20,259 nucleotides of DNA, taken from the IMG/VR virus record IMGVR_UViG_3300030012_003782, positions 1 to 20,259 of that record, one strand, 5' to 3'. The DNA is from a virus. The number at the start of each line of letters is the position of its first letter. The stretch's first letter is position 1. The position numbers and the translations under genes were made by a program. The notes beneath the pieces were generated by a model. It searched no databases, was not told the origin of the DNA, and worked only from the letters and a program-made list of their open reading frames with translations. Positions 9,794 through 18,347 of the stretch are shown piece after piece.

Positions 9794-10108
9794 TTAGTTT
9801 ACATTAAAAAACTTCTCGCATTTCATCAATGCTCTGCGCCAATATGTTTTTGCACTACTGACTGATATATCTAAACCCTCTGCTATGTGGGGAAAAGTCA
9901 TGAGGTTAAGTCTTCTATTGAAAACCTGTCTTTCCCTATAAGACATTTCATCATAAGCTTTATGAGCAGCAAACTGCCATTTTCTATCTTTCTCTGGGAT
10001 TAACCCACTCTGAAAGACTTTTAACTTATGAGCAAATTCTTGACGCAGATCAACTGAGTCCTCTAGCATTTGTCTATTTTTATCAGTTAGCATTTCCCAA
10101 TCTGACAT
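9794..10108 (-). CDS. Sigma-70 region 4 / LuxR-like helix-turn-helix protein
   Basis: This 104-aa protein is the first gene of the leftward virion operon, with AAGGAAG upstream of its ATG. Residues about 55-101 (SYRERQVFNRRLNLMTFPHI, then AEGLDISVSSAKTYWRRA and LMKCEKFF) form a four-helix arrangement typical of sigma-70 region 4: an S-x-R-E-R-Q-V opening, a helix-turn-helix with IAEGLDISVSSAKTY, and a closing basic helix. Regions 2 and 3 are absent, so it is not a complete sigma factor. It could be a transcription activator of the late operon or a packaging-associated DNA-binding protein, since it precedes terS. Regulation of the operon is inferred from position. Confidence 0.65.
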   Translation of the reverse strand: MSDWEMLTDKNRQMLEDSVDLRQEFAHKLKVFQSGLIPEKDRKWQFAAHKAYDEMSYRERQVFNRRLNLMTFPHIAEGLDISVSSAKTYWRRALMKCEKFFNVN

Positions 10109-10197
10109 GTCATTACTTCCTTTACAATGGTATTGAAAATTTTAAGAGTCAATACGCCGCACCCCCCAGCGCCGCCTTGGGTGTTGGGGTTGCTAGT

Positions 10198-10212
10198 TAT
10201 ACATAATGTATA
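10198..10212. promoter_or_regulatory. 15-bp perfect palindrome, candidate operator
   Basis: TATACAT-A-ATGTATA is perfectly symmetric about position 10205. It lies immediately downstream of the leftward TATAAT hexamer, where a bound repressor would block that promoter. Outer sequences GGGGTTGC (10186-10193) and GCAATAACCCC (10219-10229) are also nearly symmetric around it. The operator role is inferred from symmetry and place. Confidence 0.45.
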
Positions 10213-10240
10213 TTATACGCAATAACCCCAGACGAAGCAA
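10212..10240 (-). promoter_or_regulatory. Candidate sigma-70-type promoter for the virion operon
   Basis: On the minus strand TTGCTT (10235-10240) is followed after 17 nt by a perfect TATAAT (10212-10217). The -35 matches consensus only at TTG. Transcription would start near 10205 and give a leader of roughly 95 nt before the ATG at 10108. The -10 touches the 15-bp palindrome. Confidence 0.4.
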
Positions 10241-10248
10241 CCAGAAAA

Positions 10249-10293
10249 AAGCGGGGGGGCTGCCAGGATGGCACAGAAGCGGGGGGGCGGGGG
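10249..10293 (+). repeat. Duplicated G7 tract, potential G-quadruplex
   Basis: AAGCGGGGGGGC occurs twice exactly (10249-10260 and 10277-10288), the second followed by a further G5 run. Between the copies TGCC-AGGAT-GGCA can form a small hairpin. Such G-runs are striking in a genome this AT-rich and could fold as a G-quadruplex on the plus strand or in the leader of the rightward transcript. Confidence 0.55.
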
Positions 10294-10417
10294 CTATTTC
10301 CGCTTCATTCCCTTTTTGTAAATTTAGACAAATAAAAACTTTATTATTTTATACCATGTCAATAAAATATTTACTATATTCTATTAATTGATATTAATAA
10401 TATAAAGGACTTTAAAA

Positions 10418-10657
10418 ATGAGATTAAAAAAACATGTTAAGATTAGAGTAATTACAGAAGCTTTTAGTTATGCTATTTCAATAGTAGCTTTAATTGGAAG
10501 CATTACAGCATTACTATTAATTACTACAACAGGACAAGCAACAGGTGAAGCAACATTAGCGCACCCTAACTTTCTAAATGGTATTATATTAATGGCTATA
10601 AGCGCCTGGTTATTCCTGGGCGGTTATGTTATCTATATATTAGGAAGATGCGAATAA
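10418..10657 (+). CDS. Small membrane protein with two transmembrane segments
   Basis: This 79-aa protein begins with a basic stretch (MRLKKHVKIR) followed by two hydrophobic helices, about residues 14-37 (AFSYAISIVALIGSITALLL) and 51-76 (FLNGIILMAISAWLFLGGYV). The basic N-terminus predicts a cytoplasmic start, giving a hairpin with both ends inside. An AAAGGA site lies about 10 nt upstream. It is the first gene of the rightward operon and ends with a TAATG overlap with the GP88-like gene. The family is not recognised; roles such as a superinfection or host-membrane effector, or a holin-like protein, cannot be separated by sequence. Confidence 0.7.
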   Translation: MRLKKHVKIRVITEAFSYAISIVALIGSITALLLITTTGQATGEATLAHPNFLNGIILMAISAWLFLGGYVIYILGRCE

Positions 10658-11619
10658 TGGACTTATCACTTAAAACTAATAAGATAAAACTTAATCAAAT
10701 AATAGCGCGCAGAGATTATACAACTGCGCGCGCCCTATGCGTTGAATACTTAGAGCAATTCCCAGCAAAGCCGGGGCTATCTGTTCAGGGTGCAAAGCAG
10801 ACGCATCAGGGCTACATCAAAAGCTTTATATATTTTTTAGACAATATGCACAGATTAGAAGATTTATATAATAATGGTTATATAGTGCTAGATGATAAAA
10901 AGATTAAAATTCTAGCAGATGATAACAGTAAAATTCCATTTGTTAATTATTCCAATTCACCAATAAGCAATTGCCCAGGCGCTCACAGCTGCCTAACTTT
11001 TTGCTACTCTTTAAATAGTTTTAGGTTTCCAGCGCCATTTACAAGATGGGCTATAAATTCAATAATAGAACAGGAACGCCCAGAGATCATACACCAGGCA
11101 CTAATTGATTATAAGAAAAAAAGATCTATTGCTAAGCTAATTAAAGACCAGGGGCATATTGATTTTAGACTTTTTGCGGATGGGGACTTTAAAGATTTAA
11201 ACGCTTTATATAATTGGATGGACTTTTTAAAGCAACATAAAGATATTAAAGCTTATGCATACAGTAAAAGCTGGACATTATTTATACAGGCCATAAAAGA
11301 ACGCGGCGAAAATTATTTCCCGCCTAATTTTGTTTTGAATCTTAGCAGCGGCGGCCGCTTCCATAATCTTAAAGACATAATGAAGCATTATAATTTTGTA
11401 CGCGGTGAATTTGTTAGCATTCAAATAGATAAGTTAATTAACCCGCACAAAATGACAAAAGAGCAAAAAAGAGATATAAGGAAACGCGCGCACAAGATGG
11501 GACATAAAAAAGTTTTTGTTTGCCCTGGCATCTGCGGAAGCTGTACAGCTTATGGGCATGCATGCGGGGACAATAAAAGATTTAAAGACTTTACAATAAT
11601 AACGCCTGTACATAAATAA
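10657..11619 (+). CDS. GP88-like phage protein with paired cysteine clusters
   Basis: I choose the ATG at 10657 (TAATG overlap with the previous stop) because AGGAAG lies 9 nt upstream; an in-frame ATG at 10648 is too close to that site. The 320-aa product resembles the phage GP88 family (named for mycobacteriophage gp88). It has an early Cys cluster NCPGAHSCLTFCYS (Cys106, 112, 116), a central FRLFADGDF (170-178), W187 and AYSKSW (201-206), and a late cluster CPGICGSCTAYGHAC (Cys289, 293, 296, 303). Seven clustered cysteines suggest an iron-sulphur or zinc site. The GDF and YSKS elements are the usual family landmarks. Enzymatic function is unknown. It lies in an operon with a membrane protein. 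Confidence 0.65.
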   Translation: MDLSLKTNKIKLNQIIARRDYTTARALCVEYLEQFPAKPGLSVQGAKQTHQGYIKSFIYFLDNMHRLEDLYNNGYIVLDDKKIKILADDNSKIPFVNYSNSPISNCPGAHSCLTFCYSLNSFRFPAPFTRWAINSIIEQERPEIIHQALIDYKKKRSIAKLIKDQGHIDFRLFADGDFKDLNALYNWMDFLKQHKDIKAYAYSKSWTLFIQAIKERGENYFPPNFVLNLSSGGRFHNLKDIMKHYNFVRGEFVSIQIDKLINPHKMTKEQKRDIRKRAHKMGHKKVFVCPGICGSCTAYGHACGDNKRFKDFTIITPVHK

Positions 11620-11646
11620 TTTGTTAATAACATAAGGACAAAGCAA

Positions 11647-11958
11647 ATGAGAAGAAAAAAGATAGCTAAGATATGCACAGAAATAAATAAAAGCATTGAC
11701 AAGCTAGAAAAAAAGTATAAGCAGCCATTTATTAAGCTAGAAGCAGAAGCAAAAGACGCCTATAATTATGAAAGTTATATGCCATATTATAGAGAAATAG
11801 CTTATATAGATGGACTTAAAAAAGCCCTGGAATTAATGGGCTGCGTTATTGTCTGGGATGGTGTCCAGGATGTAATAAAAGATGCTGTACAAGTTAAGCA
11901 TCTAACAAATGCAGAGCTGGACAAAGTCGCAGATATATTAGATAAAGGGGGCTATTAA
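11647..11958 (+). CDS. Hypothetical protein (103 aa)
   Basis: This protein starts MRRKKIAKICTEINKSIDKL and is preceded by AAGGAC 9 nt before the ATG. The N-terminal 45 residues are Lys/Glu-rich and probably helical; residues about 55-80 (GLKKALELMGCVIVWDGVQD) are more hydrophobic. No known domain is recognised. Its stop overlaps the next start by one base (TAATG), so it is the third gene of a co-translated cluster with the GP88-like protein. It has no signal peptide or membrane segment. Confidence 0.7.
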   Translation: MRRKKIAKICTEINKSIDKLEKKYKQPFIKLEAEAKDAYNYESYMPYYREIAYIDGLKKALELMGCVIVWDGVQDVIKDAVQVKHLTNAELDKVADILDKGGY

Positions 11959-12161
11959 TGACAAAAAAACATTATAAAGTATTAGCCCGCTTAATTGGTG
12001 AACATGGCATATATATTAATAGCGGCTTTGTAAATGATTTAATTCATGAACTTAAAAAAGACAATAGACGCTTTAATGTTGGAATTTTTAGGGATGCCAT
12101 TAATAGCAGCATAAAGCCAGATATAAAAAGACGAAACCAGGGGGGCGCGCCTATGAAATAA
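11958..12161 (+). CDS. Hypothetical small basic protein (67 aa)
   Basis: This 67-aa protein (MTKKHYKVLARLIGEHGIYI...) is the last gene of the operon and is followed 25 nt later by a strong terminator. The opening K-K-x-Y/H-x-x-x-A-x-x-I and the later RFNVGIFRDAIN resemble short proteins frequent in marine phage genomes, usually unnamed, which may be helical DNA-associated proteins. The C-terminus is basic (PDIKRRNQGGAPMK). Its last codons include an unusually GC-rich GGGGGGCGCGCC stretch. Function unknown. Confidence 0.65.
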   Translation: MTKKHYKVLARLIGEHGIYINSGFVNDLIHELKKDNRRFNVGIFRDAINSSIKPDIKRRNQGGAPMK

Positions 12162-12186
12162 AAACAGCTGGGACAAAAACAGCAAA

Positions 12187-12218
12187 AGCCCGCTATTCAT
12201 TTAGCGGGCTTTTTTTTT
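12187..12218 (+). terminator. Strong intrinsic terminator, probably bidirectional
   Basis: AGCCCGCTA (12187-12195), loop TTCATT, and TAGCGGGCT (12202-12210) form a perfect 9-bp stem followed by T9. The preceding A-run gives a shorter U-tail on the opposite strand. It closes the rightward operon and could also serve the minus-strand ORF ending at 12220. Confidence 0.92.
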
Positions 12219-12219
12219 G

Positions 12220-12480
12220 CTATTTATGCCCTGTTTTTATAGATCTTTTTCTAATATTATTATTGCCAGGGTTTTTTTGTATTTTATTAATCATGCTTAA
12301 TTTGTCCCTGGGTGAAGCTGTCATAAAACATTTTTTAAGATCTACAACATCAACAGCAGATTTAGCCCAGCCCAGAGTTTGACTACATAAATTTTTTTCA
12401 TTTTGTTGATCTGCAAATGGACAAGTAAGATCTGCTTCTTCACTATGCATACATTCATTGAATAATTCGGTTTTAATCAT
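12220..12480 (-). CDS. Hypothetical Cys-containing protein (86 aa)
   Basis: This minus-strand frame lies between the rightward terminator and the tandem repeats. The product (MIKTELFNECMHSEEADLTC...) has four cysteines (C10, C20, C32 and C51) and a basic C-terminus (NNNIRKRSIKTGHK). The residue mixture looks protein-like and the bidirectional terminator lies exactly at its end. No ribosome-binding site is visible before the ATG, and the 27-bp tandem repeats start only 8 nt upstream, so it may be leaderless or not translated. A copy of the repeat element lies inside it (12251-12277). Small metal-binding protein is one possibility; no family recognised. Confidence 0.5.
   Translation of the reverse strand: MIKTELFNECMHSEEADLTCPFADQQNEKNLCSQTLGWAKSAVDVVDLKKCFMTASPRDKLSMINKIQKNPGNNNIRKRSIKTGHK
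12251..12277 (+). repeat. Dispersed element copy (CTAATA-N10-CAGGGTTTTTT)
   Basis: CTAATATTAT, six bases, then CAGGGTTTTTT. The spacing is identical to the tandem copies at 12488 and 12515. It lies antisense inside the 86-aa ORF. Confidence 0.6.
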
Positions 12481-12487
12481 ATACTAT

Positions 12488-12541
12488 CTAATAATTAAGA
12501 TGACAGGGTTTTTTCTAATAATTAATATCTCAGGGTTTTTT
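12488..12541 (+). repeat. Two exact-length 27-bp tandem repeats
   Basis: Units 12488-12514 and 12515-12541 are directly adjacent. Both read CTAATAATTA, six variable bases (AGATGA or ATATCT), CAGGGTTTTTT. They lie in the 273-bp non-coding region, 8 nt before the start of the minus-strand ORF and about 215 nt before the rightward gene at 12754. They are the core copies of a dispersed element (see findings). Role not established: promoter, operator or replication iteron. Confidence 0.85.
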
Positions 12542-12563
12542 AAAAAAAAGGGGGGATACCCCC
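12542..12563 (-). terminator. Intrinsic terminator for leftward transcripts
   Basis: On the minus strand GGGGG, loop TAT, CCCCC form a stem (12550-12563 in total, with one more C), followed by eight T residues (A8 at 12542-12549). This is a compact classic terminator shape. It would stop leftward, antisense transcription before it reaches the tandem repeats and the 86-aa ORF. Confidence 0.6.
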
Positions 12564-12649
12564 ATTTAAAAGTAAGGCGGTATATAAAATAGTGGTATTA
12601 TTGGTACTATTAACCCCCAAAATACCGATAATTACCTATTCTGAGAATC

Positions 12650-12692
12650 GGGGGGGGATACCCCCCACCCCCACCCCCCCCATCTTTTTTTT
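12650..12692 (+). terminator. G8-ATA-C6 hairpin with C-rich run and T8; G-quadruplex-prone minus strand
   Basis: G8 (12650-12657), ATA, C6 (12661-12666) form a stem with three-base loop nearly identical to the hairpin at 12550. It is followed by ACCCCC and ACCCCCCCC runs and then T8 (12685-12692). The intervening C-run makes it an imperfect rightward terminator. The minus strand carries G8-T-G5-T-G6, which meets the usual G-quadruplex pattern. Confidence 0.5.
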
Positions 12693-12753
12693 CTTGTATA
12701 TTTCATTTTTTGTAAATAACTTAATTACAATTAAACAATGAAAGGACTAAAAG

Positions 12754-13089
12754 ATGTACATACATATTAACGAATCAGAATTTATAGATAGATCAAATAA
12801 AATGTCGCAGTATAAGGATAATTTCTCATATTGGGGTAAAAAAGCTTTATTTCAGCATCTAGAAGAGTATGAATCTGACACAGGCGATAGTGTTGAATTT
12901 GATTATATTGCTTTTTGTAGTGAATGGACAGAGTATGAAAGCGTAGATGAAGTAGAAGATGCTTATGGCACTCTGGAAATTGCTGGAATATCTGATTTAG
13001 AAAATCATACACAAGTAATAACTTTTAAACACTATACAAATATAATGGAAGATGTCTATACTACCAGATATATTGTAAAAGATTTTTAA
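12754..13089 (+). CDS. Conserved phage hypothetical protein (111 aa)
   Basis: This acidic protein starts MYIHINESEFID with AAAGGAC upstream. The pattern FSYWGKKALFQHLEEYESDT followed by VEFDYIAFCSEWTEYESVDE matches a widespread but uncharacterised early phage and prophage protein, in which NFS-x-x-G-x-x-A-L-x-x-x-L is followed by E-x-D-x-I-A-x-C-x-x-x-x-E-Y. I recall this family only as hypothetical. It is the first gene of the rightward cluster of small genes, in a typical early-gene position. No membrane segment, signal or catalytic motif is visible. A host-takeover or anti-defence role is possible but not shown. Confidence 0.75.
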   Translation: MYIHINESEFIDRSNKMSQYKDNFSYWGKKALFQHLEEYESDTGDSVEFDYIAFCSEWTEYESVDEVEDAYGTLEIAGISDLENHTQVITFKHYTNIMEDVYTTRYIVKDF

Positions 13090-13108
13090 ACAACGAAAGG
13101 AAAAAAAC

Positions 13109-13351
13109 ATGCCTAAATATGAAAAAACAGAAGATGTAGGTAAAAATTGGATTTGTAAAGACTGCGGAAGCGATGATGTACAGCAAGAAGCATGGGTTAA
13201 TGTGAATACATCAGAAATAGAAACATTTCCTGAGCATAATAAAGCTTGGTGTTGTGAATGTGCAGATCATGTCCGCATCGGTATTGATAATGAAATATAT
13301 GAAGAACAAAAAATAGATTATTTACAATCTGTGGGGGGACATTGTGGATAA
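13109..13351 (+). CDS. Small zinc-ribbon-like protein (80 aa)
   Basis: An AAAGGA site precedes the ATG. The product has CKDCG (about residues 15-19) followed later by CCEC (about 47-50), a CxxC ... CxxC pair spaced about 30 residues apart as in zinc ribbons. Between them is a polar segment (SDDVQQEAWVNVNTSEIETF). The acidic C-terminus ends CG. It is probably a metal-binding small protein of unknown target. The next gene begins within its last 8 nt at a GTG codon, so the two are coupled. Confidence 0.7.
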   Translation: MPKYEKTEDVGKNWICKDCGSDDVQQEAWVNVNTSEIETFPEHNKAWCCECADHVRIGIDNEIYEEQKIDYLQSVGGHCG

Positions 13352-13577
13352 TAATTTAAAAATATATAAAGTACATTTTGGTAAAGCTTACCCACTTTAT
13401 AATGGTTATGACAAAGATTACCACAGAATAAGAAAATACAATAATTTACAAAAAGCAGAAAAATGCGTACAAAGAGCAGATAATTGTAAATGGGTTGAAT
13501 GGGCGCACTTGGTAATAGACATTACATCAAGTGAAAAAGAGTTAAAATATGAAAGGGATAAAAACAATGGACAATGA
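13344..13577 (+). CDS. Hypothetical protein (77 aa), GTG start
   Basis: The frame opens with GTG at 13344, preceded by a G6 run about 5 nt upstream that can act as ribosome-binding site, and overlaps the previous gene by 8 nt. The product, MDNNLKIYKVHFGKAYPLYN and onward, is basic in the centre (RIRKYNNLQKAEKCVQRADN) and ends in a charged tail. The aromatic-rich start (YKVHFGKAYPLYNGYDKDYH) suggests a small beta-strand fold. No family recognised. It sits in the tightly overlapping early cluster. Confidence 0.65.
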   Translation: MDNNLKIYKVHFGKAYPLYNGYDKDYHRIRKYNNLQKAEKCVQRADNCKWVEWAHLVIDITSSEKELKYERDKNNGQ

Positions 13578-13755
13578 TATAAAACTATTAGCCGAATCGC
13601 TGCATAATGAAGTAGATTTTATTAAAGAGCGTATTAAAAAATTAGAGCTGCTAATAGGCAAAGTAATAGAAAAAGCAGCTGAAAATAAAGAAATTGTAAT
13701 AGAAAAAGAAATACCTAATTTGTCTTATGGTGAAAAAGACTATGTTGAATTATAA
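13567..13755 (+). CDS. Hypothetical coiled-coil protein (62 aa)
   Basis: I choose ATG 13567, which has AAAGGG about 9 nt upstream; an in-frame ATG at 13549 has none. The product (MDNDIKLLAESLHNEVDFIK...) is Leu/Ile/Glu/Lys-rich with heptad-like spacing over residues 5-45, predicting one amphipathic helix or coiled coil, then an acidic end (SYGEKDYVEL). It overlaps the previous gene by 11 nt and the next by 14 nt. Function unknown. Confidence 0.6.
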   Translation: MDNDIKLLAESLHNEVDFIKERIKKLELLIGKVIEKAAENKEIVIEKEIPNLSYGEKDYVEL

Positions 13756-13969
13756 ATCAATGTTAGGCGATAGCCATTATACATTCATAAAAGATATTAA
13801 GGGGGCTAATTTACTCTCATTCGCAAAGTATGAGAGCTATACATTCTCTCACTACTATATTATATCTCATGTTAGTATCAATCAGTCCAAAAAGAGAGTA
13901 GTTAGTTCCCTTAATGTATTTACAAAAAAGATAGATCATAAAGTTGAAAGTTTAGCGGATGCTATTTAA
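13742..13969 (+). CDS. Hypothetical protein (75 aa)
   Basis: The ATG at 13742 has GGTG about 9 nt upstream; an in-frame ATG at 13727 has no site. The product (MLNYKSMLGDSHYTFIKDIK...) is rich in Tyr, Ser, His and Phe, with an aromatic segment FAKYESYTFSHYYIISHVSI in the middle and a more basic second half. No membrane segment long enough is present. It is the last gene before a 134-nt structured gap, so it may end a transcript segment. Family not recognised. Confidence 0.6.
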   Translation: MLNYKSMLGDSHYTFIKDIKGANLLSFAKYESYTFSHYYIISHVSINQSKKRVVSSLNVFTKKIDHKVESLADAI

Positions 13970-13978
13970 AAAGAGATC

Positions 13979-14100
13979 AAGTAGTTGCGAGTGGGTGAAA
14001 ACCCTGGGAATAGTCGCCCACACCCCCCGCCCCTACTCATTTCTTGTAAATACAGGTTGGCTACTTAGGTGTCCGCTAATAATTATATGCCCAGGGTTTT
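13979..14100 (+). ncRNA. Structured non-coding segment, candidate leader/attenuator
   Basis: The gap 13970-14103 contains several pairings. GTGGGTGA (13991-13998) pairs with TCGCCCAC (14014-14021) with one G-U. AAGTAG (13979-13984) pairs with CTACTT (14061-14066). AAAACCCTGGG (13998-14008) is perfectly complementary over 11 bp to CCCAGGGTTTT (14090-14100), which is followed by another T. The first and last pairings cannot both form fully, because the loop of one is the arm of the other. This is the shape of an attenuator or antiterminator before the gene at 14104. A C6-G-C4 run follows at 14023-14033. No RNA family is recognised. Confidence 0.4.
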
Positions 14101-14102
14101 TA
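14076..14102 (+). repeat. Dispersed element copy immediately before the gene at 14104
   Basis: CTAATAATTA, six bases (TATGCC), CAGGGTTTTT: the ten-base left part is identical to both tandem copies at 12488 and 12515 and the spacing is the same. Its GGG lies 10 nt before the ATG at 14104, so a start at GGG would give an almost leaderless message. Confidence 0.75.
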
Positions 14103-14103
14103 T

Positions 14104-14319
14104 ATGGATAAAAAGAAATTAATTAAACAAGTTAAGTCATTAGATAAACAAATAAAAAAGATGGACTTAGAAATTTCAGATTTAAATGCAAAATATCATA
14201 GAGCATATAGTCCAAAAAGTTTAATTAAAATTCGCAAGCAAATTGATAAAAAAATATTAAAAAAAAGAGATAAGCAAAAGCTTCAAGATATTTTAAGGTT
14301 GGCATTGTCTTATGGATAA
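14104..14319 (+). CDS. Hypothetical lysine-rich coiled-coil protein (71 aa)
   Basis: The product starts MDKKKLIKQVKSLDKQIKKM and is about one third Lys plus Arg. Residues 1-30 and 42-65 have Leu/Ile at heptad spacing, predicting two helices that could form a helical hairpin. No ribosome-binding site precedes the ATG; only TTTTTATA lies between the repeat element and the start, so translation may be leaderless. The 53-aa ORF that follows begins within its last 8 nt. Function unknown; nucleic-acid binding is possible from charge. Confidence 0.6.
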   Translation: MDKKKLIKQVKSLDKQIKKMDLEISDLNAKYHRAYSPKSLIKIRKQIDKKILKKRDKQKLQDILRLALSYG

Positions 14320-14473
14320 GGCCTGGGACATTCAAAAAGAAAAACATCTTAATAAGAATAATATTATTTTTAAGGATGAAAAGTATTACATGCTTTATAA
14401 AAGTTTAAAGCAAGTAGATGATAAAATAAAACAACAAGGAAGAAAATATGGAAAAAGAAGTAAGGTTATATAA
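14312..14473 (+). CDS. Small hypothetical protein (53 aa)
   Basis: ATG 14312 overlaps the previous stop (ATGGATAA, 8 nt) and the frame runs to TAA 14471-14473, overlapping the next gene by 26 nt. The product, MDKAWDIQKEKHLNKNNIIF and onward, is Lys-rich with a YYMLYKSL segment. AAGG lies 13 nt upstream, longer than ideal. The 8-nt overlap arrangement is the same as for several neighbours, and without it there would be a gap of about 130 nt in an otherwise gapless cluster. No family recognised. Confidence 0.5.
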   Translation: MDKAWDIQKEKHLNKNNIIFKDEKYYMLYKSLKQVDDKIKQQGRKYGKRSKVI

Positions 14474-14696
14474 TGTTTACTATAACTATGACAATAGTAT
14501 GAGTTATGAAACCACAACAGATAACTTTGATAAATGGCTAGATCAACATAATCAACAAAGAGTGAGTGATGTAGCGTGTGGCAGTCAAGACGATTATGAA
14601 CACGAAAACGAAGAATGTATTTGTTATGAAAGTAAAGATATGTTTGAAGTAAAAGAAGCTAGTATAGCTTTGTTTGGTGGTAAAGATGAAGTATAA
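14448..14696 (+). CDS. Hypothetical acidic protein (82 aa)
   Basis: AAGGAAG lies 7 nt before the ATG. The product begins MEKEVRLYNVYYNYDNSMSY and is strongly acidic (many Asp/Glu), with a Cys pair in ECICYES (around residue 57-59). Highly acidic small proteins in phage early clusters are sometimes DNA mimics or enzyme inhibitors, but nothing specific is visible here. It overlaps the next gene by 11 nt. Confidence 0.65.
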   Translation: MEKEVRLYNVYYNYDNSMSYETTTDNFDKWLDQHNQQRVSDVACGSQDDYEHENEECICYESKDMFEVKEASIALFGGKDEV

Positions 14697-14865
14697 AATA
14701 ATAGTTAAAGATTATGATAATTATTATGAAAAAGACATAGATACAAATGATTATCATGAAAAAAGCGATAATGCAATTATAGACGCTGAAATTAATTACA
14801 TGCGTAAAGATTTCTATAAAGAGCATGGAAGTCAGCCAAATGATGCGGAAGTGATAAGATTATGA
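14686..14865 (+). CDS. Small hypothetical protein (59 aa)
   Basis: I choose ATG 14686, which has GGTGGT about 5 nt upstream; the frame can be extended only to a TTG at 14674. The product (MKYKIIVKDYDNYYEKDIDT...) is rich in Tyr, Asp and Lys. Its first strand-like segment KIIVKDY and the later helix DNAIIDAEINYMRKDFYKEH suggest a small alpha/beta fold. The stop overlaps the next start in an ATGA. Family not recognised. Confidence 0.6.
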   Translation: MKYKIIVKDYDNYYEKDIDTNDYHEKSDNAIIDAEINYMRKDFYKEHGSQPNDAEVIRL

Positions 14866-15215
14866 AGCATAAATTAAAACTAAGAGAAAAACAAGATCTA
14901 GCTGAATTAATGGCCAGGCATTTAGAGATGCCCGCCCAGGAAGTGTTGGAATTTATGTTTAATGATGATGATAGAATACTTGTTTGCAGAGATTATTACA
15001 GCGACTGCCCTGGATACAGGGGTACTATTGTATGGGTAATTGGTGGTGATAGCTGCTATCAGACTTGTTTTGCAACAAAAGACGAGGGCGGCTGGTATAT
15101 AAAGTATGAGATCAACGAAAATCAGTTCACCCCCTGGCTTGAAAATGGCAAGAAGTGGACAGATAAAAACATGAACGACTTAATGAGAATGTATATCATG
15201 AAAGGGGATATATAA
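14862..15215 (+). CDS. Hypothetical protein (117 aa)
   Basis: This is the largest gene of the small-gene cluster, coupled through ATGA to the previous one, with GGAAG upstream. Residues 8-33 are helical (EKQDLAELMARHLEMPAQEV) and the rest alternates short hydrophobic strands with Gly and Trp (RGTIVWVIGGDSCYQTCFAT, GGWYIKYEINENQFTPWLEN), as in a compact beta-rich domain. Four cysteines (about 42, 49, 65, 69) are spread without a clear metal motif. Its G+C content looks higher than that of neighbours. No family recognised. Confidence 0.7.
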   Translation: MKHKLKLREKQDLAELMARHLEMPAQEVLEFMFNDDDRILVCRDYYSDCPGYRGTIVWVIGGDSCYQTCFATKDEGGWYIKYEINENQFTPWLENGKKWTDKNMNDLMRMYIMKGDI

Positions 15216-15409
15216 TGCAATATTATGTAGGATGTAAAAATATAAATTGGTTTAAAGCAAAGCTAGATAAATTATATGGTAATGATAATAATGGCTTTGT
15301 ATATGGCCTGGAATTGCAAAAATATAATAGTTCTAAAAAATGTATTTGGTTTAGTTCCAGGAATCAAAGAGATCAGCACAGAAAACAAATTGAAAGGGGT
15401 TTAGCATGA
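15215..15409 (+). CDS. Small hypothetical basic protein (64 aa)
   Basis: A strong AAAGGGG site lies 6 nt before the ATG, which overlaps the previous stop by one base (TAATG). The product, MQYYVGCKNINWFKAKLDKL and onward, is basic with many aromatic residues; its end is positively charged (NQRDQHRKQIERGLA). It looks like a small folded domain but no family is recognised. It is coupled by ATGA to the next gene. Confidence 0.65.
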   Translation: MQYYVGCKNINWFKAKLDKLYGNDNNGFVYGLELQKYNSSKKCIWFSSRNQRDQHRKQIERGLA

Positions 15410-15720
15410 GCCATGCAGATAGTAGTTATTCTAAAAATAATTTAACAAATAATTATTTATTAACATTTTTAGGTAGCGTATTAGGTGAAGCCATAGACGA
15501 TAGTATTTCTGTTGCCTTTGAGGATACTGATGCGCCTGATAAATCAGGTGTTTGGCCTGTGATGGTATATAAAGAACATGTATGCATCATTGATGATGGG
15601 AATGCATTAACTTTTGAAAAAATGTATTTAATAATAGGTTATTGTACATTTCATAACATTGATTTTGTCATTAATGGTCAATTAGAAGAAAAATTTTGGC
15701 GCAAAAGTTGGCAATTATGA
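15406..15720 (+). CDS. Hypothetical protein (104 aa)
   Basis: The ATG lies in an ATGA overlap and has AAAGGGG 6 nt upstream. The product starts MSHADSSYSKNNLTNNYLLT and contains SVLGEAIDDSISVAFEDTDA, then a strand-rich part (GVWPVMVYKEHVCIIDDGNA, YLIIGYCTFHNIDFVING). The C-terminus ends RKSWQL. No domain is recognised. Acidic overall, soluble, in the early-gene cluster. Confidence 0.65.
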   Translation: MSHADSSYSKNNLTNNYLLTFLGSVLGEAIDDSISVAFEDTDAPDKSGVWPVMVYKEHVCIIDDGNALTFEKMYLIIGYCTFHNIDFVINGQLEEKFWRKSWQL

Positions 15721-15944
15721 TAGTAAAAGAAAAAATTTATCAGTTTGAAATAGAGAGAGTCGAAGTAGATGAGGATAAGATTACTGCTACTATGTTTAAA
15801 GAATTTCTAATATTACAAGAGTCAGGGGTTTATAATATGGTAAGCCCTGATGTAAGAGATCATCTTGGAATTTCTAAGAAGCAGCATCATTATATGCTTA
15901 AACATTTTGAAGATCTAAAACTTTTTTTCAATGAAAAAGACTAG
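15717..15944 (+). CDS. Hypothetical phage protein (75 aa), convergent with the primase gene
   Basis: I choose ATG 15717, in an ATGA overlap with the previous stop; a TTG at 15696 would extend the frame by seven residues. The product contains TMFKEFLILQESGVYNMVSP, then a D-x-R-x-x-L-G-I-S-K segment and a final helix with HYMLKHFEDLKLFF. The motif L-x-x-x-x-x-SG-x-x-NM-x-x-P followed by G-x-S-K is reminiscent of a small phage protein seen elsewhere and always unnamed. It ends in TAG sharing a CTAG palindrome with the stop codon of the converging primase gene. Confidence 0.65.
   Translation: MIVKEKIYQFEIERVEVDEDKITATMFKEFLILQESGVYNMVSPDVRDHLGISKKQHHYMLKHFEDLKLFFNEKD
15807..15833 (+). repeat. 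Dispersed element copy inside the last small gene
   Basis: CTAATATTAC, six bases, CAGGGGTTTAT. CTAATA and CAGGG are at the same spacing as in the tandem copies; the T-run is degenerate. Confidence 0.5.
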
Positions 15945-17854
15945 TCGTCTAAATATTTGAATGGTTTGATATTATAACTACCATGTCCTACGCGTTCAAA
16001 TAAGCCAAATTCTATTAACCTATTAACCCAGGAATATGTTGTTTTCGGGTTGCGCCCTAACTCATCTTCCACATAGGCCTTTATCTGTCTAATATCTAGT
16101 ACAGCAGGGTATTTTACAGAATTTATAGTTTTAGCTTTTGCGTAAGATTTCAAATGTTTAAAAGCTTGAAATTCAGGTTTTTTCTTAATGTCCACATAAT
16201 GTACAGCTTCATTCTCAATAGCATTTAATTTATTGAAGCACAGGGTATTTTCATCAAATTCCATACAAAATGGTACATTTAAAATGTCTGCCTGTTGTGA
16301 TCTACACTTAGTTAGTTTAAAGATTTTAAGCTCATGAGATAGGTTTGATTGAGCTACTTGTAAAGAATTAGATACAAAGTCGGTAAAAGATTTACCCCCG
16401 CGTATCATGTCTTTATTAAGTGTTTTATGATCTGCATTCATTTTTGTGTGGTGATTGATAAGCATGATGCCAATGTTGTGCTTATTTTTAATGTCAGCGA
16501 TTTTTGATAGCAGCTTAGCAAGTTCTTGGTTGTTTTGCACATCTTTTTCTGTTGATGTGTATAAATTATCAACGATGAGAATGTCATAGTCGTTTGAAGC
16601 CAATGATCCATCAATCATTGTCCAATTATCAACGAAGACTGAATTTTCGGTAACTCCTTTAATATCTAAGTACCCAGGGTTTTTTATGTCTTTTGCAAAT
16701 GAGTTATACATTGATTTTAATCTATTTCGTAATTCTTGATTTGATAACTCAAATTGTACCAATAGCACTTTGTATTGCTTTTTAATTGCAAACCCTAAAA
16801 ATTCTGTACCAGAAATACATGCTAATGCAAATTGTAATGCCAGGAATGATTTACCCACACCATCTGATCCAGCGATTGTGGTAACTCCCCCACGCGTCAT
16901 AATCTTATCAACCATAATTTCCTGTTCTTCTTCATCTCGTTCCAGGAAGCTATCTAATTGAAAGATGTCTAGCTTTTCTCTAAGGTCATATTTGGTACAA
17001 TTAGCAATGGCATCTTTAATTTCTATTTCAGTAGATGAAGACACATCCGCCCCCTCATCCATATTTTGCCATTCAGCTATATAAACATTTTGTGCTTTGT
17101 TAATACAAAGTTCATAAGCAAGTTTTTCTGCACCATCTATTCCAGCTTCATCATTATCATAGCAAATTAAAATTCTTTTATACTTTACTATCTCTCTTAC
17201 ATCTGGAAAAGACTTTGCGCCTGTGGTAGAGGTAATCGCACCCCCGCGAATAGATTGCATGCTAATATAATCTTTTTCACCCTCAACTATTACTAAGAGT
17301 TCATAATTATCATCCAGGTTTCTTTTTGGAAACCATCTTGATTTTGTATTACCATACTGTGAGCTTTTGTGCCACTTTATAAAATCTATATCACCATCTT
17401 CATTTCTATCAAAAAATACCCAGGACTTTGTATGCCAATCCCAACATGCATTCTTAATTGCTGCTTCTTTTTTCCAATGATCTGGTTTTTCTAGCTCATC
17501 CCAATGCTCATCTGTGTATTTTATGTACCCAGTAACCAAAGATAGCTGTTCATTAAATTTTTTATCTTTTTTCAAATTTTTTTCTCTCGAGGATGTGCTT
17601 TTACGCGACTTTCTTGGTGTCTTTGATGTAGTTGTATCATTATTATATGAAACGCTTGTATCGCCCATTTTAGAGCGTAATTTGTGAAAACTACCTCTTT
17701 CACCACATGAAAAGCATAAAAAGTACCCATTTTGCTGATGAATGCTCAAACTTGGTGTTTTATCATCATGAAATGGACAATTTGTTATAAAATTATCACC
17801 AGATTTTTTTACATTGCTAAAATACTGCCCAACAAAATTACTTACCTTGTTCAT
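15941..17854 (-). CDS. DNA primase-helicase (CHC2 zinc finger, Toprim, RepA-like ATPase)
   Basis: I choose ATG 17854 (AAAGGG 6 nt upstream); the ATG at 17887 has no ribosome-binding site. The 637-aa protein joins three parts. A CHC2-type zinc finger is at residues 26-50 (CPFHDDKTPS ... CFSCGERG; Cys26, His29, Cys47, Cys50). A Toprim domain has VEGEKD (190-195) and YDNDEAG (232-238). A RecA/RepA-like ATPase has Walker A GSDGVGKS (329-336), Walker B ILIVDN (425-430) and INHHTK. A C-terminal winged-helix-like segment (TTYSWVNRLIEFGLFERVGH) follows. It would make RNA primers and unwind DNA at the phage fork. The start overlaps the methyltransferase gene by 17 nt. Confidence 0.9.
   Translation of the reverse strand: MNKVSNFVGQYFSNVKKSGDNFITNCPFHDDKTPSLSIHQQNGYFLCFSCGERGSFHKLRSKMGDTSVSYNNDTTTSKTPRKSRKSTSSREKNLKKDKKFNEQLSLVTGYIKYTDEHWDELEKPDHWKKEAAIKNACWDWHTKSWVFFDRNEDGDIDFIKWHKSSQYGNTKSRWFPKRNLDDNYELLVIVEGEKDYISMQSIRGGAITSTTGAKSFPDVREIVKYKRILICYDNDEAGIDGAEKLAYELCINKAQNVYIAEWQNMDEGADVSSSTEIEIKDAIANCTKYDLREKLDIFQLDSFLERDEEEQEIMVDKIMTRGGVTTIAGSDGVGKSFLALQFALACISGTEFLGFAIKKQYKVLLVQFELSNQELRNRLKSMYNSFAKDIKNPGYLDIKGVTENSVFVDNWTMIDGSLASNDYDILIVDNLYTSTEKDVQNNQELAKLLSKIADIKNKHNIGIMLINHHTKMNADHKTLNKDMIRGGKSFTDFVSNSLQVAQSNLSHELKIFKLTKCRSQQADILNVPFCMEFDENTLCFNKLNAIENEAVHYVDIKKKPEFQAFKHLKSYAKAKTINSVKYPAVLDIRQIKAYVEDELGRNPKTTYSWVNRLIEFGLFERVGHGSYNIKPFKYLDD
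16089..16115 (+). repeat. Dispersed element copy antisense in the primase gene
   Basis: CTAATATCTA, six bases, CAGGGTATTTT. Eight of ten left-arm bases match the tandem copies and the spacing is identical. Confidence 0.5.
16225..16251 (+). repeat. Weak dispersed element copy in the primase gene
   Basis: TTAATTTATT, six bases, CAGGGTATTTT. Only five of ten left-arm bases match; listed because TAAT and CAGGG keep the spacing. Confidence 0.3.
16659..16685 (+). repeat. Dispersed element copy antisense in the primase gene
   Basis: TTAATATCTA, six bases, CAGGGTTTTTT. Seven of ten left-arm bases and the whole right arm match the tandem copies. Confidence 0.5.
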
Positions 17855-18347
17855 CTCTACCCTTTTGTACAGATTCAAATAATGCATTTAAAGAGCGATG
17901 ATCTTCTACCCCCCAAAATACAATCATACTGGGAAATGGTGCTGGGTTTGGCTGATCGTTAAATCTTAATCTGCCGCGTATAAAAAATATGTGAGCTTTA
18001 CCATAAATATAATCATGAAACCATTTAGTGTCAGTTCTGCTTGGAAGTAATGCTACTGTCATTTTATTATGATCTTTCCATTGTAAGTATGCTCTTTCAA
18101 TAAACTTATTCATACCCCTACTGTAAGGTGGATTCATATAGTTTATTTTACCCCATGGATTATCAAAGCAGCTATTTTCAGATGTATAATAATTTTCACA
18201 TAAATAGTTGCTATCATTAGCACACACATCACAGTCAAATTTAAAATATGTATTTAAAGTTTCAAACAGCCAATCTGGTGTGCGCCAATTTTGAAGTTCT
18301 GACCTAAATGCTAAATCTTTATAAAATTTAGGATCTCGCTTAGCCAT
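17838..18347 (-). CDS. Dam-like DNA N6-adenine methyltransferase
   Basis: This 169-aa protein matches the short phage Dam family (DNA N-6-adenine-methyltransferase). It opens with RTPDWLFETLNTYFKFDCDV (22-41), the conserved x-TP-x-x-x-F binding segment and FDxD. The catalytic NPPY lies at 72-75 in INYMNPPYSRGMNKF. Further segments TVALLPSRTDTKWFH and RGRLRFN are typical. It transfers a methyl group from S-adenosylmethionine to adenine, possibly to protect phage DNA from host restriction or to mark it. Target sequence is not predictable. The start codon overlaps the exonuclease stop by 8 nt (ATGGCTAA). Confidence 0.88.
   Translation of the reverse strand: MAKRDPKFYKDLAFRSELQNWRTPDWLFETLNTYFKFDCDVCANDSNYLCENYYTSENSCFDNPWGKINYMNPPYSRGMNKFIERAYLQWKDHNKMTVALLPSRTDTKWFHDYIYGKAHIFFIRGRLRFNDQPNPAPFPSMIVFWGVEDHRSLNALFESVQKGRDEQGK

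Follow-up and report, generated by a model that had tools for sequence, protein, structure and literature searches.

What reads a short two-block DNA element that a phage repeats, always facing the same way, in the zone where its two directions of transcription collide? The question is raised by IMG/VR record IMGVR_UViG_3300030012_003782 (hereafter the window, meaning the whole 20,259-base stretch), an incomplete contig, classed as linear, of an uncultivated marine tailed phage. Between positions 12251 and 16685, the window carries seven copies of TAATA-N10-CAGGG on the plus strand and none on the minus strand. The element is real and is conserved in related viruses. Our preferred reading, to which we assign a probability of about 0.4, is that it is a stoperator-like polar site, asymmetric and built of two blocks, at which a bound protein is predicted to stop rightward transcription.

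A spaced element repeated with one polarity

Every copy but the last begins with exact CTAATA; the copy at 16659 has TTAATA. Each is 27 bases long, and the set is as follows:

12251 to 12277, plus strand: copy 1, CTAATATTATTATTGCCAGGGTTTTTT, overlapping the 3′ end of a leftward gene for an 86-amino-acid (aa) protein
12488 to 12514, plus strand: copy 2, CTAATAATTAAGATGACAGGGTTTTTT, just upstream of the start codon of the 86-aa gene
12515 to 12541, plus strand: copy 3, the tandem 27-bp neighbour of copy 2
14076 to 14102, plus strand: copy 4, CTAATAATTATATGCCCAGGGTTTTTA, intergenic, ending just ahead of the ATG of a 71-aa open reading frame (ORF)
15807 to 15833, plus strand: copy 5, CTAATATTACAAGAGTCAGGGGTTTAT, within the last gene of a rightward block
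16089 to 16115, plus strand: copy 6, CTAATATCTAGTACAGCAGGGTATTTT, within the 3′ end of the primase gene and antisense to it
16659 to 16685, plus strand: copy 7, TTAATATCTAAGTACCCAGGGTTTTTT, antisense in the primase gene
16225 to 16251, plus strand: a weak candidate, TTAATTTATTGAAGCACAGGGTATTTT, probably a chance match

The seven copies lie exactly where the original prediction, made from the letters of the window, had placed them. Its tally also agrees with our recount, which gave ten CAGGG pentamers on the plus strand between 12.1 and 16.7 kb, seven of them with the partner block at the same distance. When gaps of 0 to 30 bases between TAATA and CAGGG were counted, a gap of 10 occurred seven times, a gap of 3 once and all others not at all. 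The spaced, one-directional element is thus upheld by the full set of checks. The claim that the repeat is far above chance was borne out as well, since 1000 dinucleotide shuffles, with both strands counted together, gave a mean of 0.052 copies and a maximum of 2. A post hoc scan of all 5-mer pairs with gaps of 0 to 20 placed the TAATA/CAGGG pair at the top, with a count of seven reached in none of 30 shuffles.

At their 3′ ends, five copies continue with GGGTTTTT, the copy at 15807 with GGGGTTTAT and that at 16089 with GGGTATTTT. The element has no palindromic symmetry, and the copies, whose starts are 237, 27, 1561, 1731, 282 and 570 bases apart, show no fixed spacing and no helical phasing. 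An eighth, weak copy had been proposed at 16225. We dropped it: its position weight matrix (PWM) score is 17, compared to 27–33 for the other copies, no relative has it, and its codons are not constrained.

We also considered a Geminivirus-like nick site (TAATATTAC at copy 5), KOPS and Chi; these were set aside, their sequence not being common to the other copies. The divergent intergenic region at 12549–12690 contains G and C runs (GGGGGGATACCCCC, CGGGGGGGGATACCCCCCACCCCCACCCCCCCC), one of which a terminator scan reported as a terminator-like hairpin that faces leftward and comes immediately ahead of copy 3.

The element is conserved in related viruses

One relative, G003 (L067 and L068, 34,638 bases), is near-complete: it covers nearly the whole genome, since it wraps round the window's ends. 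Far relatives are those whose terminase is about 66% identical. At homologous sites, near relatives keep CTAATA and CAGGGTTTTTT, with differing flanks and inner ten bases, and the consensus of the relatives, at matching places, is CTAATA-N11-AGGG-T/G-TTTT. Copy 7 is kept in all relatives that cover it, and copy 1 in seven loci with diverged flanks (L074, L032, L067, L072, L030, L037 and L069). Copy 6 is kept in L073, L074 and L075 and has decayed to TCAATA in G003 and L071. Copy 2 is present in L073 and L074 and missing from G003 and others, while copy 3 has no counterpart in relatives, L073 and L074 having one unit there. Copy 5 occupies the same place in L073 and L074, and G003 has a different copy elsewhere in the matching gene. 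For copy 4, the relatives have no homologous DNA.

Copies also turn over within the same zone, as G003, G010 and L032 carry an extra copy inside the 86-aa gene, and in G003 and L071 the block's final gene has its copy at a shifted position. A PWM scan recovered more family copies in relatives (for example, L067:10650, L069:184, L032:1786 and L067:13581), with CAGGG relaxed to [CTG]AGGG. In far relatives, the form is CTAATA-N11/12-GGGG-TTTT, found twice each in G034 (L077:5593 and 5719) and G035 (L078:8576 and 8730); G040 has two such copies 30 bp apart (L191/L213), and G041 (L086) has a weaker form. The window has seven copies, G003 has four, and G034, G035 and G040 have two each. In motif-bearing relatives in which the 86-aa region is covered, a copy overlaps the 3′ end of the 86-aa gene; G040 is the exception, with both copies about 70–100 bp downstream.

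The pattern TAATA-N12-GGG-N-TTT matched 32 times in 11 of 13 records, whereas no more than 0.055 matches are expected per record. Because some of the 13 records overlap or are near-identical, the 32 matches do not count as separate events. All matches fall on the strand opposite to primase and in the primase/86-aa zone. The motif-bearing records include near relatives and three far ones; primase is not covered in G010, for which the strand was judged from the adjacent 86-aa gene. Searching relatives with the motif, as the original prediction had suggested, thus found it conserved. Within near-complete G003, the element is confined to the primase/86-aa zone and is not genome-wide. A minus-strand match at G003:31089, not retained in L071, probably arose by chance, and the matches outside the family (L027, L028, L031, L034 and L038) are single copies in unrelated contigs, at the chance level for 17 fixed bases.

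The 28 copies compared were chosen for TAATA and GGG, so these two words do not vary among them. Beyond these selected words, the outer C, A/T at position 7, T/A at position 9 and the trailing T's are conserved, and positions 10–16 carry 0.02–0.47 bits.

The constraint is on DNA

Since copies 1, 6 and 7 lie in coding sequence and read leftward as K-N/Y-P-G/A-x-x-x-I, a protein motif needed to be excluded. A coding by-product, in which the same protein motif is read in three places, would account for the reading phase that these copies share with the leftward genes. However, copies 2, 3 and 4 are non-coding. Moreover, the L074 homologue of the 86-aa protein is 72 aa long and ends in KNPG-stop within the element, and TATTAG, the CTAATA half, is retained past the stop codon. 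The element also overlaps the stop codon of the homologue in G035, G041 and G034. Codons are fixed beyond their amino acids: in five primase sequences, 131 of 405 amino-acid-invariant codons are identical gene-wide (Met and Trp left out), and in codons 401–409, which hold copy 7, eight of nine are identical, making this the top 9-codon window of the gene. The single varying codon falls in the unconserved spacer. As a full explanation, the coding by-product is refuted, and we give it scarcely any credence; selection acts on the DNA and not on the protein.

Copies surround two convergent gene junctions

The genes of the window (terminase, major capsid protein, primase/helicase, exonuclease, RusA-like and methyltransferase genes among them) run nearly all leftward. 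This rule is broken by two rightward groups of mostly small genes; in G003, apart from these groups, all genes of size run leftward. The result is the only two convergent junctions, 12161/12220 with the 86-aa gene and 15944/15941 with primase. The features concerned are:

9794 to 10108, minus strand: sigma-region-4 protein, conserved
10418 to 12161, plus strand: first rightward gene group (79-aa, GP88-like, 103-aa and 67-aa)
12184 to 12213, plus strand: canonical bidirectional intrinsic terminator from the terminator scan, lying after the first rightward group and ahead of copy 1
12220 to 12480, minus strand: 86-aa gene, with four invariant cysteines (C10, C20, C32 and C51)
12754 to 15944, plus strand: second rightward group, of small genes, convergent with primase
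15941 to 17887, minus strand: DNA primase/helicase (phrog_239, E value 9e-28)

Leaving aside that at 14076, every window copy falls in the interval from 137 bp ahead of to 715 bp beyond the end of a rightward group, and the copies share one polarity although the overlying genes run both ways. In far relatives, the 86-aa homologue comes directly after primase, and the copy pair lies between it and convergent amidotransferase-like and amidoligase-like genes. Because the window copies are near the ends of rightward groups and the far pair is beside convergent genes, we favour a polar block of rightward transcription. The uniform polarity, together with the lack of a palindrome and of fixed spacing, suits a single-protein site whose effect would be set by the direction from which polymerase or replisome arrives.

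In the model, a sequence-specific protein would bind the asymmetric two-block site of about 25 bp, CTAATA-N11-AGGG-T/G-TTTT, several same-polarity copies of which would be placed around the two convergent junctions. The bound protein would halt RNA polymerase moving rightward, as a polar roadblock or terminator, so that transcripts of the two rightward groups would be kept from running antisense through the 86-aa gene and primase. The copy at 14076 would limit the distal part of the rightward block. The motif is observed, as are its fixed geometry, polarity, position, conservation and constraint at the level of DNA; that a protein binds it, that binding affects transcription and which way the block faces are inferred. 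What the original prediction had listed as an alternative, a regulator binding site, holds up as a probable regulator-type protein-binding site. Candidate binders, by position and fold type only, are the four-cysteine 86-aa protein and a Cro-like protein. The former has no Pfam or PHROG match, and its AlphaFold model (predicted local distance difference test score of 52) is too poor for structure searching. The latter is a small Cro/C1-like helix-turn-helix protein (L068:2170–2379) with a sub-threshold Pfam score, from a search that covered part of the genes.

Several observations weigh against a polar block of rightward transcription. The copies at 12488/12515 and 14076 fit the guarding of junctions less well, and a leftward block may be compatible with most copies. 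The far-relative pair, beside conserved dyads in a long non-coding stretch, is as origin-like as it is insulator-like. One genome, G039, has primase and the 86-aa gene but neither copies nor adjacent dyads; since it lost the element while keeping both genes, the element is dispensable. Comparison of the gene content of motif-bearing genomes with that of G039 pointed to no partner protein, and the cognate protein was not identified.

Origin, promoter and terminator readings

The main rival assigns the copies to the replication origin of the phage, where they would serve as sites for an initiator, a helicase loader or a polar fork barrier near primase. All copies adjoin primase and a small conserved gene, and the polarity of the element suits a fork barrier. 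The two copies of far relatives lie in about 800 bp of conserved non-coding DNA, which also holds four TTATACATAA-type dyads, a TTTCTCG-CGAGAAA dyad and AT-rich DNA, and copies and dyads were lost together in G039. However, the dyads are absent at the corresponding place in near relatives, no known initiator gene was seen, and copies inside and antisense to coding sequence are atypical of iterons. Since the copies are 27 to about 1700 bp apart, with no helical phasing or tight cluster, the replication iterons named in the original prediction are disfavoured in their classical form; a wider origin role, given far copies beside the conserved dyad region, is possible if doubtful. The original prediction had led with rightward promoters for a T7-class single-subunit RNA polymerase, starting at GGG. 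In the T7 consensus, GGG comes 17 nt after the start of TAATA, and −1 is A. The element has the same geometry, and we regard the 17-nt distance as a true coincidence. The promoter reading is not upheld: searches of G003 and G034 turned up no polymerase gene, the specificity block lacks conservation, copies are antisense (copy 1 to the 86-aa gene, copies 6 and 7 to primase), and the element runs 3′ into conserved T/G-TTTT. Bases from the TAATA block to −2 vary, leaving no conserved counterpart of the specificity (−12 to −8) or melting (−4 to −1) blocks, and far copies show G for A at −1, or four to five G. A PF00940 search of 11 records for the polymerase gave no match, with its built-in control silent too, and G003 ORFs of polymerase size are all accounted for except an 820-aa tail-region protein without a Pfam match. 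We consider these promoters very improbable.

Read leftward, the element could be a non-standard promoter with TATTAG as −10 box and AAAAACCC upstream, perhaps served by the sigma-region-4 protein. The two boxes at fixed spacing, the location of copies 2 and 3 directly upstream of the leftward 86-aa gene and the conservation of the sigma-like protein all fit. Yet TATTAG is missing the final T that is key to a −10 box, the copy at 12488 would yield a leaderless message, those at 14076 and 15807 would give RNA antisense to rightward genes, and G039 has the sigma-like gene without any copies, leaving this reading unlikely. A T-run directly after AGGG in most copies might instead mark rightward terminators, hairpin-less or intrinsic, that act through RNA alone by a G-rich pause and a U-run. 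Here, something further would have to read the upstream TAATA block and its fixed 17-nt spacing, and the T-run of far relatives is only four long. A scan for a GC-rich hairpin directly before the T-run flagged none of the copies. Termination by RNA alone is a distinctly unlikely account. Around copy 4, the RNA fold did not surpass those of shuffles.

Gene neighbourhood and phage group

Homologues of the four-cysteine family occur in L074, L010, L032, L030, L077, L078, L086, L191 and L211, adjoining or near primase. The class II glutamine amidotransferase-like and amidoligase-like neighbours (L077:6672–8766, minus strand; L078:5689–7903, plus strand; named by eye) are present only in far relatives that bear the element. 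They do not point to a partner, because they are missing from the window's group too and not just from G039. Between primase and the 86-aa homologue, far relatives have tandem CACTATTGA-type repeats (L077:5280–5340, L078:8980–9045 and L086:9905–9930), a second, different repeat class.

Window positions 10109–10417, before the sigma-region-4 gene, are a strongly conserved non-coding stretch with the dyad TTATACATAATGTATATTATACGCAA, which is present in all near relatives aligned. The dyad is somewhat similar to the Xer site dif, and its 20 of 28 matches to E. coli dif are within the shuffle range. An Rfam scan of the window gave sub-threshold matches only, at the 12.2-kb terminator.

A host search with primase and terminase in 84,980 species genomes found no relative. 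Among deposited phages, the portal had no match and the terminase had distant matches only. Far relatives carry a tyrosine integrase look-alike, named by eye (L076:14209–15303, minus strand; L086:540–1640, minus strand; G039 24919–25986), and those with it are probably temperate; no integrase was noticed in near-complete G003.

Significance and comparison with known systems

The locus illustrates clearly how a regulatory or replication element can be recovered from raw metagenomic sequence of an uncultivated phage group and backed by comparison, with DNA-level selection within protein genes, in one orientation, where two transcription directions collide. If the element is a one-way polymerase stop, stoperator-like systems would occur naturally in phages with no relationship to the mycobacteriophages from which stoperators were described, and the element would be a small, testable polar terminator. 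If instead it marks an origin, it would locate the replication start in a phage group that has no isolate. Tentatively, we suggest an undescribed polar site that, with a putative binding protein, would insulate convergent operons as a one-way polymerase stop, maintained through coding sequence and subject to site turnover.

Ter/Tus-type fork-arrest sites are asymmetric, about 23 bp long and work in one orientation. The element resembles them in asymmetry and length and differs in sequence, and no Tus-like gene was seen. Like replication iterons and phage origins, it is a directional repeat near primase, to which far relatives add dyads and AT-rich DNA; unlike them, it has irregular spacing, copies inside coding genes and no identified initiator. 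T7-class phage promoters share the AT-rich TAATA block 17 nt before GGG, and differ from the element in its conserved T-run, antisense copies, lack of a conserved specificity or melting block and lack of a detected polymerase gene.

In phage L5, a monomeric repressor binds asymmetric stoperators, and reversing a site abolishes repression (PMC9283540). L5 has more than 20 sites that occur genome-wide and follow gene direction, whereas here two to seven copies occupy one zone. The element also differs from stoperators in keeping one polarity whatever the gene strand, in its sequence and in that no repressor of that type, with a helix-turn-helix and a stoperator domain, was identified in the part of the genes searched. 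Its orientation matches the rightward groups that the copies follow, and several copies are antisense in leftward genes. As in the cluster A mycobacteriophages L5 and TipsytheTRex, it is a short, asymmetric, two-part site present in multiple copies, with a selected orientation and with locations that are intergenic and near gene ends.

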